In this document: piece by piece, positions 27,679-31,100 of the stretch | Numbering within the stretch: the stretch's first letter is position 1 | Layout of the letters: each line of letters opens with the position of its first letter | Origin: Candidatus Gracilibacteria bacterium | GTDB taxonomy: Bacteria; Patescibacteriota; Gracilibacteria; BD1-5; UBA6164 | Assembly: GCA_010119145.1 (NCBI GenBank) | Contig: JAACSU010000010.1 | Location: forward strand, 1-64,000 | Length of the DNA stretch: 64,000 nt | Reading direction: 5' to 3' | The notes under the pieces: generated by a model | Seen by the model: the letters and a program-made list of their open reading frames with translations, nothing else | Told to the model about the DNA's origin: nothing | The model's database searches: none | Translations under genes and position numbers: made by a program

Positions 27679-28158
27679 ATGTTTGAATACCTACCCTCCG
27701 ATGCAACACTCTTTGAATCGAGTTTTGAGATATTAATTATCCTCGCTGGAACATTTTTTTTAGGAATGATGTTTGGTTGGCTGATTAAACCAGTTTCAAA
27801 AATTAAAAATTACACTGAAGCCTCTAAATTAAACTCTCTACAAGAAAAAAAAATATTTGAGAAAGATGATGATGAAATATTTGAGGAAATAGTCACTTGA
27901 GATATTACACTCATAATCTGAATAGACTCAAAAATTAAAAAACTTTTAGCGTTAAAATGAGTACATAACTTTGCAGATATTGTTCGACTTGATGTCGCAT
28001 GATTAGAACAAATATTACTTGAAGCGGGGAATTGATATACTAACTATATCCCAACTACTTGGCCTGACCAAGCGAGACTTGCTTCTCTTTGAAAATGGAC
28101 GGAGCTTGAAGAATATCAGGAAATACTCTCACATTCAAATCAAAAAAAACAACACTAA
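27679..28158 (+). CDS. Membrane-anchored helix-hairpin-helix protein
   Basis: 159 residues. One TM helix (about residues 17-38, ILIILAGTFFLGMMFGWLIKP), a charged linker, then a DUF4332-like helix-hairpin-helix region: GIDSKIKKLLALKGVHNFADIVRLD, followed by WPDQARLASLGKWTELEEYQ. This tail is typical of proteins annotated as 'predicted flap endonuclease-1-like 5' DNA nuclease', for which no nuclease activity is shown. The TAA stop lies in the loop of a terminator hairpin and overlaps the stop of the convergent gene. Confidence 0.8.
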
Positions 28159-28176
28159 TGAGTGTTGTTTTTTTGT
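28146..28176. terminator. Bidirectional terminator with both stop codons in its loop
   Basis: Stem AAACAACAC / GTGTTGTTT with loop TAATGA, with A and T runs outside. The loop holds the + strand TAA (28156-28158); the - strand TAG is the complement of 28155-28157. Confidence 0.88.
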
Positions 28177-28922
28177 TTTAGGAGTGAGCTCTTAAATATT
28201 TCAGGTTGAAAAGCTTTTATTGTGATAATATGACTACTCAGTCATAGCTCTTTGAGGGTTTTAGGAAGGGAGTCTACATATTTTCAACGTTGATCATATC
28301 CTAGGCATATAGAAAAGGGTTTATATTTTTCAAGCCATTGCATAGGACGAGTATTACTTCAAGCTTCGATGATATCAGAAATACCAAGCGCATTTAATGA
28401 ATGTATTCTATCACTCATAGTATAGTCAGGTTTTTTTCATTTAATTCTTTCTATATTTTCATCACTTGCCACAACAGTAATGAGTGTATTTCAAAATTTC
28501 GATGCTTGTTTGAGATAATATTCATGTCATGGATGTATGTGATCAAAACTTCAGAAAGTGAGCACGGCTAAAACTATATTTTCTGCTTCAAATTTGTCTT
28601 GAGTAATTTGTCATCTTAGTGCGTCAAAACTATCAAATTTCTTATTTTCTCGTAGTTTTTTGAGGAGAATTATTTCCACTATCTCCCCATAAATTTCTTG
28701 ACTGAAGTTAAATATATGGGCTTCAAAGAGGTTTTTTCCTTCTAAATATGTTCCAACTCAATCATATATTTTATTACATATAACTGCTCGAATAACATAG
28801 ACTCAAAAATGTATTGTACGTGAATCTAAATGAATATTGAGGGTAGGAAATCAGATAGTTCTTCATAGTTTTTTCCCATGAAGCACTACTCATGATATTT
28901 GCTGTATTGTAATATTAGACAT
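28155..28922 (-). CDS. Riboflavin kinase fused to archaeal RibL-type FAD synthetase (reversed domain order)
   Basis: 255 residues. Residues 1-125 are a riboflavin kinase domain: GKKLGRTIGFPTLNI, then GVYVIRAVI, FEAHIFNFSQEIYG, LRENKKFDSFDAL. Residues about 128-255 are a cytidylyltransferase-fold domain: TFGSFDHIHPGHEYYLKQA (HxGH), TVVASDENIER, then KPFSICLGYDQ, which looks like archaeal FAD synthetase RibL and not like the FMNAT domain of RibF. Bacterial RibF has the adenylyltransferase first and the kinase second; here the order is reversed and the second domain is of another family. The predicted job is riboflavin to FMN to FAD. Its ATG overlaps the ribH stop by 8 bases. Confidence 0.88.
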
Positions 28923-29364
28923 CGAGACTTGCTGATAATAAATTGAGTCCAGAAATACCAAGATTTGCGTTTATACGCTCTTCAACTTGTTCTTTGTTTT
29001 CACAGGTAAGAAGCCCAAAAATAATAGGGGTTTTATACTTCACAGTTGCATTCATGATTCACCTTGCTGTTTCATTACATACGTAGTCATAGTGACTGGT
29101 TGCTCAACGTATTACGACTCAAAAACAATAAATAAGATCAAAATTTCAGTGCTTCATAATTCTTTCTATCATACCTGGAATTTCAAATGCTCCGGGAACT
29201 CTAAATTTTTTAATGTCTCTGAAATGATGTTCCTCGAGTAATTTTTCAGTAAGATTTTCAAGTTGAGTTGTATAGAGACTATTAAAGTCAGCAGTGATGA
29301 ATGCTATTTTTATATTTTTTGGAATATTTGAAATACTATTGAGTTCTTGGGTAAAGTCAGCCAT
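28915..29364 (-). CDS. ribH: 6,7-dimethyl-8-ribityllumazine synthase
   Basis: 149 residues, the usual size. IKIAFITADFNSLYTTQLENL, the FRVPGAFEIPGMIERIMK block, CFGVVIRGATSHYDYVCNE with the catalytic-region His, and IIFGLLTCENKEQ. It condenses the pyrimidinedione intermediate with dihydroxybutanone phosphate to make lumazine, the substrate of RibE. Gly of VIRGATSHYD is UGA. It begins 1 base after the ribE stop and overlaps the RFK-RibL gene by 8 bases, giving a three-gene operon. RibA, RibB and RibD are not in the window. Confidence 0.95.
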
Positions 29365-29365
29365 A

Positions 29366-29935
29366 TTATTTTGTATTAAGTATATATTTTCCTAGAAGAT
29401 CAAACTCAATGTTTATACAATCAGATAGATTGATTTCTCATAGATTTGTCCAGTCTTGAGTTAAGGGAATGAGAGAAACGAGTATATATCAATCTGACTT
29501 TTCTGCAATAGTAAGACTCACTCCATTAAGTGCAATTGATCACTTTATTATAGTATACTTGGAAAAAGTTTCAGGAAAATTAATTCCTAATAAAAGTGAT
29601 CCATCATCTAAGAGCTCTCTTTTTTTTACTAGGCCTATACAATCTATATGACCACTTACAAAATGTCAGTCTATTCTATCTGATACTTTGAGGGAACGTT
29701 CTAGGTTAAAAAAATCTCATGTTTTTTTAGATCAAAAATTTGTTTTAGCTAAGCTCTCTAACATTACAAAAAAACTATAGCTTTCTGAAGTAAAACCATT
29801 TATCGTCATACAAGCTCAATCATGAGCTATAGACTGTCCAAGTGTTAACTCGCTTCAGTACAAGTTTTCTACAGTATAGGTTCCATTTTCTATAGAAAGT
29901 ATTTTTCCTTTTTTTTCGATAATTCAGCTAAACAT
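29366..29935 (-). CDS. ribE: Riboflavin synthase alpha subunit
   Basis: 189 residues with the two-barrel layout: MFSGIIEKKGKI at the start, GASMTINGF-like GACMTINGF, IDGHFVSGHIDCIG in the first-to-second barrel junction, and GSIALNGVSLTIA. It dismutates two lumazines into riboflavin. First gene of the operon; a TATAAT on the minus strand (29947-29952) ends 11 bases before its ATG. No FMN riboswitch is visible: there is no room for one in the short leader. Confidence 0.95.
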
Positions 29936-30032: not shown

Positions 30033-31100
30033 ATGATCTTTTCACAGAAAATAAGAGCCTTTACACTTGTAGAACTTATAGTTGTTATCACGATTATAGG
30101 AATACTATCTACAATTTGATTTGTCTCTTATTCTAATTACCTTACTTGAGCTCGAGATTCTAATAGAGTTTCACAAATGGTTAAACTTAATGACTCTATT
30201 CAAGTATATGGATCAAATAAATCTCTTCCACTTCCAGATGATTATATAGATATTACAGCAAGTGGTGCTACAAATATCATAGGATACCAAGGTTTTCTAT
30301 GAGTAGACGTACTTGAAACTATTGATTATACGAACTGATGAACAGATCCTAAAGATGGAACATACTACACATACTATGTATCTAAAGATAGAACATCATT
30401 TCAACTCCTGACACTCCTTGAGGAATGAGGGTTAGTTTCTAAAAATACATTTTGAAATCAAGCAAATGCTGTTAATTATGATGAAAGGTTTGTAAAAGTT
30501 TATGGTAAGAAATTATGAATTCTCACTTCTACAGATCCAACTATTTACAACACTCCAGTACAAGATATTTCTTGACTTACGAGCGTCGACGTAGTGGCAA
30601 CTACAAATACTTACATAGCTCATTTGTCAGATACTGATAAATTAGAGTGAACAGGAACTGTTCTGAGAGCAGCAAATCCAAAGGCAAACTGTAAGAGATT
30701 GAAACAAACTGGTAATGGAAATAATAGCTGAATTTATGAAATAAATCCAACTGGATCAGCAGTTGTAAGTGTATACTGTGATATGGAAATAGCAGGTGGT
30801 TGATGGACTCTTGTTGCTCGAAGTGTTACCTGAGGAACAGGAACTTTTAATCTTACTACTAATAACTGAACACTCACAAACTTAAATGCAGCATATACTC
30901 TAGCTTCTTCAAATTTGAAATATTCTGCTCAACTCTTCACAAGCTATAGTTTTGATAGAGTCATAGATAAATCGAAAGAAACTGCAGTTACAGCTGCAAG
31001 TTTAACGAGTGCTCCTCATACTCTTTCTGGTTCAGGTATAACAGGTTGAGTCGCTAATGACGGATACAACGCGAAACAAGGTATGTTATTTGTGAAATAA
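30033..31100 (+). CDS. Type IV prepilin-like protein with C-terminal fibrinogen-like domain
   Basis: 355 residues. Prepilin N-terminus KIRAFTLVELIVVITIIGIL, processed by a prepilin peptidase between Ala and Phe (position -1 is Ala instead of Gly). A long variable middle follows. The C-terminal part has NCKRLKQTGNGNNSGIYEI, VYCDMEIAGGGWTLVARS, the core pattern of fibrinogen-related domains (CxxI...G.Y.I.P.....V.CDM...GGGWT). Such domains bind sugars or proteins, so this looks like a pilus-tip or surface adhesin. PilB lies just downstream on the other strand. A terminator follows. Confidence 0.88.

Follow-up and report, generated by a model that had tools for sequence, protein, structure and literature searches.

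A kinase-first fusion of a bacterial riboflavin kinase and a RibL-type nucleotidyltransferase as a predicted bifunctional FAD synthetase of Gracilibacteria

In the canonical bifunctional RibF (TIGR00083, PRK05627) an FMN adenylyltransferase domain (FMNAT, PF06574) comes first and a riboflavin kinase domain (RFK) second. The partner of the archaeal FAD synthase RibL is the unrelated CTP-dependent kinase RibK. For the RFK domain, the roles of the PTxN motif and of the catalytic glutamate are assigned by homology to CaFADS (PMC5428420), and the motifs HxGH and ISSTxxR are described for the nucleotidylyltransferases (PMC11423594). RibL from M. jannaschii also uses CTP and GTP, whereas the Entamoeba enzyme EhFADS uses ATP only and is active although it lacks the two conserved cysteines of archaeal RibL (PMC11423594). 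For the Parcubacteria, FAD synthase was listed in 2015 among the missing activities, though the FAD enzymes MurB and TrxB are kept (PMC4508563).

The gene considered here lies on the minus strand of the window, that is the whole analysed stretch of 64,000 nucleotides, and belongs to a genome of 1.28 Mb in 37 contigs which uses TGA as a glycine codon and whose nearest named relatives are Gracilibacteria MAGs. Translated with table 25 it is a single intact open reading frame (Table 1) which starts with ATG at 28922, ends with TAG at 28155–28157 and contains 13 TGA codons read as glycine; the motifs GRTIGFPTLN, HPGH and CLGYDQ quoted in a preliminary description of the sequence are all present. 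Translation of the same region with table 11 yields no long open reading frame, and an annotation in the standard code would overlook the gene entirely. As the frame is broken under the standard code and as stand-alone versions of both domains exist elsewhere, one could argue that the single chain owes its existence to the code chosen for translation or to the assembly, and that two separate proteins are made. We rejected this explanation, whose probability is practically negligible, since 32 genomes have the same uninterrupted frame, some of them with only 4–6 TGA codons in the gene, and since several of the TGA codons coincide with conserved glycines of the family (G11, G24, G55, G124, G132 of HPGH and G213). 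Among the 77 genomes of the order, 32, the source genome included, encode the complete fusion, 31 of these belonging to the same family; it is also present on two MAG contigs of another collection (51–53% identity; protein identical to two of the 32). Thus, the fusion is real and not a chance frame.

At the 3′ end of the gene (28140–28182) an inverted repeat, AACAACACT...AGTGTTGTT, can be seen by eye between A and T runs. Both the fusion gene and a convergent gene (27679–28158, plus strand) have their stop codons inside this repeat, which resembles a bidirectional terminator used by the two.

Table 1. Features of the fusion gene and its flavin gene neighbours (positions in the window)
Feature	Position	Strand	Basis
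Fused riboflavin kinase / RibL-type FAD synthase gene (predicted)	28155..28922	-	255 aa, code 25
Riboflavin kinase domain, residues 8-116	28575..28901	-	PF01687 E 1.3e-27; 1s4m Z 14.5
PTLN, residues 26-29, PTxN ATP-binding motif of RFK	28836..28847	-	T27, N29 34/34
E67, presumed RFK catalytic glutamate	28722..28724	-	34/34; role by homology (PMC5428420)
RibL-type nucleotidyltransferase domain, residues 119-250	28173..28568	-	PF01467 E 4.1e-9; 3glv_A Z 17.4; archaeal RibL profile match
HPGH, residues 130-133	28524..28535	-	H130 33/34; G132, H133 34/34
GYDQ, residues 208-211, signature common to archaeal RibL	28290..28301	-	34/34
KSS, residues 244-246, putative counterpart of SS/ST phosphate-binding motif	28185..28193	-	34/34
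ribH, lumazine synthase; overlaps fusion gene by 8 nt	28915..29364	-	PF00885 E 5.7e-36
ribE, riboflavin synthase, two lumazine-binding domains	29366..29935	-	PF00677 (Lum_binding) E 1.5e-34

The preliminary description had claimed a reversed domain order with a bacterial RFK and had proposed a domain search with table 25. This search returned the kinase first (Flavokinase, 96.9 bits against a curated cut-off of 19.6) and CTP_transf_like second (Pfam match over residues 121–248), in agreement with the claim. The RibF equivalog model TIGR00083 aligned to residues 9–116 (E 2.2e-31) with 109.4 bits, its cut-off being 184.35, and the FMNAT family FAD_syn (PF06574) gave the C-terminal domain 18.5 bits (cut-off 27) over only 36 residues round HxGH. 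The hallmarks of canonical RibF, an N-terminal FMNAT of PF06574 and an RFK at the C terminus, are both missing from this protein. An AF2 model built from three sequences (mean pLDDT 70, pTM 0.51; adequate for each fold and not for interdomain placement) puts the end of the kinase helix near residue 116; the initial strand of the second domain runs from residue 119, and the two domains would abut with almost no linker. When the model was compared with PDB folds, its N-terminal half matched the RFK modules of FAD synthetases (Table 1). In an alignment of 34 fusion rows, corresponding to 32 distinct sequences, G11, T27, N29, E67, G124, D127, G132, H133, R172, GYDQ and KSS are invariant, and C206, directly before LGYDQ, is kept in 31 of the 34.

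With hhalign the profile of the fused C-terminal domains scored 170 against archaeal RibL (E 1.4e-29, 132 columns), represented by only three proteins of which two are annotated by similarity (3glv and two Natrinema plasmid genes), 104 against TagD, 101 against HldE and 45 against the FMNAT of RibF. The label RibL would therefore draw on annotation and literature. The PDB entry 3glv is titled "lipopolysaccharide core biosynthesis protein"; the protein is encoded by Thermoplasma volcanium, shares 46% identity with a haloarchaeal sequence that carries the annotation FAD synthase, and is most likely an archaeal RibL FAD synthase. Chain A of this entry is also the best PDB match to the C-terminal half of the model (122 residues, rmsd 2.1, 31% identity), followed by the Fom1 CyTase (Z 16.1), TagD (15.8 and 14.6) and HldC (13.9). 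Among the reference groups, the archaeal set gave the top blastp score for 66 of 67 Patescibacteria rows. The fusion family shares G(Y/H)DQ with archaeal RibL, and the same site reads GxDW in TagD and KGxDY in HldE. Identity with either of these was set aside, as KSS is likewise lacking there and the fusion stays far below the family cut-offs (TIGR01518 for TagD, 26.1 against 165.4 bits; TIGR02199 for HldE domain II, 55.7 against 181.5 bits). No NCBIfam RibL model was matched, even by annotated archaeal FAD synthases, and therefore there is no curated yardstick in this collection. Archaeal RibL was also not found in a scan of viral contigs.

In a weakly resolved phylogeny of the second domain, based on 139 columns and with long branches in the outgroup, the fused and stand-alone Patescibacteria domains and archaeal RibL are split from TagD and HldE with support of 98/89, and within the Patescibacteria set the fused domains cluster with stand-alone ones of their own order (95/80). 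AU tests rejected neither a forced grouping of the fusions with TagD (p 0.385) nor a single origin of the fusion (p 0.356). As the tree is short and these tests reject nothing, the assignment leans on profiles, motifs, context and co-occurrence. Taken together, HxGH and G(Y/H)DQ are present and the best profile and the best fold are those of archaeal RibL (three archaeal rows, moderate tree support), which supports a nearer kinship of the domain with archaeal RibL than with TagD, HldE or the FMNAT of RibF. The archaeal-type second domain of the preliminary description is thereby upheld as a description of the family and not of a recent import from archaea, the nearest kin being stand-alone Patescibacteria proteins. 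A grouping with the FMNAT of RibF or with the glycerol-3-phosphate cytidylyltransferase (TagD) of another pathway, named there as refuting, did not appear in the profile scores or in the tree, but on the side of TagD the AU test leaves this a weak result. The preliminary description went too far in calling the adenylyltransferase motifs of RibF unrelated: both domains belong to one superfamily, with (H/T)xGH and ISSTxxR (PMC11423594), and to distant families within it.

The flavin context put forward in the same description was found as well. On the minus strand ribE, ribH and the fusion gene follow each other, and in 30 of the 31 other fusion genomes ribE and/or ribH lie upstream on the same strand within ~1.5 kb of the fusion. 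Divergent from ribE, at 30033–31100 (plus strand), is a gene with an N_methyl type IV pilin-like N-terminus and a fibrinogen-C-like stretch. DHBP synthase (RibB) and GTP cyclohydrolase II (RibA) are absent from the source genome and from each of the family's 33 high-quality genomes; ribE and ribH are nevertheless retained beside the fusion, and the riboflavin pathway is cut to its last steps. The reduced genomes and the truncated pathway suggest dependence on others, and it could be imagined that FAD comes from a host or neighbour, that the C-terminal domain binds FMN or FAD as a poor or regulatory enzyme and that the protein mainly makes FMN. We consider this very unlikely, as HxGH, GYDQ and KSS are conserved over the 32 distinct sequences as would be expected for an active enzyme.

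The source genome (97% complete) encodes the FAD enzyme MurB, and PF06574 has no match in it even at E 1. Apart from the fusion, CTP_transf_like matches only one protein of this genome, which is NMNAT-like and looks like an NMN adenylyltransferase. A second place with similarity to RFK was ruled out as a possible RibF, as it is a short fragment of 59 residues after an xseA-like gene (L002 1531–1710, plus strand; G000:C7:251578–251760). It may be a decaying second copy, because G331 of the same genus has a full-length second stand-alone RFK (L079). Another stretch of the assembly (L091, G000:C11), in which a RibD_C/DHFR-like gene stands beside a gene that by eye resembles an F420 ligase, has genes without TGA glycine and is probably a contaminant from another organism.

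Across the phylum, RFK (PF01687) was detected in 82 of 287 sampled Patescibacteria genomes. PF06574 passes its cut-off in three of the 287, and a clear canonical FMNAT is present in one, G008 (160 bits), as a stand-alone protein of 203 residues (L106 724–1332, minus strand; G008:C64) with RFK on another contig; the other two reach 27–28 bits with their best stretch at the HxGH end of proteins of ~155 residues. At a threshold of E 1e-7 no RibL-like gene is matched in G008, and such genes occur in 73 of the 82 genomes with RFK versus 25 of the 205 others (odds ratio 58, Fisher p 5e-36), a p value to be taken as a guide only, since the genomes are not independent and the counts are uncorrected for shared ancestry. 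In several Patescibacteria genomes the stand-alone RibL-like and RFK genes adjoin. This co-occurrence provides a candidate FAD synthase for the Patescibacteria and may explain how FAD is made there. As 25 genomes carry a RibL-like gene without a detected RFK, some members of the family may act on other substrates.

Pfam matches show the kinase joined to other partners in the phylum as well. It is found behind an ABC transporter ATPase (ABC_tran and Flavokinase) in three genomes of one family (L098 403–1602, plus; L099 237–1574, minus; L100 439–1764, plus), which suggests that riboflavin import could be coupled to phosphorylation. A riboflavin synthase with two Lum_binding domains forms one chain with RFK at L097 493–1671 (plus) and L101 437–1471 (plus). 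Further fusions, at L095 684–1643 (minus), L096 1225–2124 (plus) and L102 817–1740 (minus), involve 5-formyltetrahydrofolate cyclo-ligase in two genomes and a NUDIX domain, by eye resembling IPP isomerase, in one, and in G288 S4 and pseudouridine synthase domains share a frame with RFK (L084 1511–2722, minus). In a sister family RFK is followed by ~290 residues without a Pfam match which by eye are SIS (phosphosugar isomerase)-like (L075 1563–2798, plus; L076 1056–2342, minus). RFK is a mobile module in Patescibacteria, and the kinase-first fusion is one of several. Since these partners include unrelated enzymes, being joined to RFK is by itself weak evidence that two activities belong to one pathway.

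These observations bear on a reading in which the N-terminal RFK is real, whereas the C-terminal domain uses CTP or ATP to activate another phosphorylated compound (for example a polyol, a sugar or a lipid head group) and the join is incidental, as also seems to hold for the other RFK fusions. Such a role would fit the superfamily shared with TagD and HldE and the weak matches to both, the other partners of RFK and the RibL-like genes in genomes where RFK was not detected. Nevertheless, the archaeal FAD synthase is the best match by profile, fold and motif, the co-occurrence with RFK is strong where the canonical FMNAT is absent, flavin genes adjoin the fusion and the PF06574 search at E 1 revealed no other FMNAT in the source genome. 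We therefore consider a different substrate unlikely, and suggest, with a probability of about 0.86 and on sequence-based grounds, that the protein is a kinase-first bifunctional riboflavin kinase / FMN adenylyltransferase, i.e. an FAD synthetase.

In the proposed mechanism riboflavin would be phosphorylated with ATP to FMN at the N-terminal bacterial-type RFK, with PTxN serving Mg-ATP and E67 as the base, as the family would suggest. FMN and ATP would then be converted to FAD and PPi at the C-terminal RibL-type nucleotidyltransferase, as suggested by family and context, where HPGH and KSS may hold the phosphates and GYDQ may partly line the nucleotide or flavin pocket. The overlapping genes point to co-expression with ribE and ribH, and the fusion would substitute for RibF in these Gracilibacteria. 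Its origin could be the joining of two proteins that are common in Patescibacteria as separate chains, an RFK and a RibL-like one; this is the simplest origin, because both genes are widespread and the fused domain nests among stand-alone RibL-like ones. Going further, we lean towards a scenario in which the FAD-making Patescibacteria generally swapped the canonical FMNAT for a RibL-type enzyme and this Gracilibacteria lineage put the latter behind the freed RFK; a bifunctional FAD synthetase would thus have been built a second time and independently, with the domains in opposite order, and would be fed by a riboflavin route of which the last two enzymes are left.

The preliminary description knew of no enzyme with this domain order, and in the open-access literature searched we likewise found no description of a kinase-first FAD synthetase. 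The separate domains and reactions are known; what we did not find described is the domain order, the combination of a bacterial RFK and a RibL-type domain and the use of such a protein throughout a lineage. The fusion links riboflavin kinase to a RibL-like protein for which a generic cytidylyltransferase would otherwise be the only possible annotation, and makes the 2015 statement on the lack of FAD synthase in Parcubacteria testable. As a second, differently built bifunctional FAD synthetase it would also be useful to ask whether domain order or the hand-over of FMN matters.

When compared with known systems, the fusion resembles canonical RibF in having a homologous RFK module and the same two predicted reactions in one chain, and differs from it in that RFK stands before and not behind the adenylyltransferase, which is of a distant family. 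With archaeal RibL (M. jannaschii) and with EhFADS from Entamoeba histolytica (PMC11423594) it has in common a compact nucleotidyltransferase domain that carries HxGH and G(Y/H)DQ, but archaeal RibL is a stand-alone protein, whereas the RibL-type domain of the fusion sits behind a bacterial ATP-type RFK. TagD and HldE domain II / HldC belong to the same superfamily and have the same fold (Z 13.9–15.8) without GYDQ and KSS. The stand-alone pairs of RFK and RibL-like proteins in other Patescibacteria (e.g. G181, G053, G070 and G159) comprise the same two domains as separate proteins, and in the first three of these genomes the RibL-like gene comes first, opposite to the order in the fusion.
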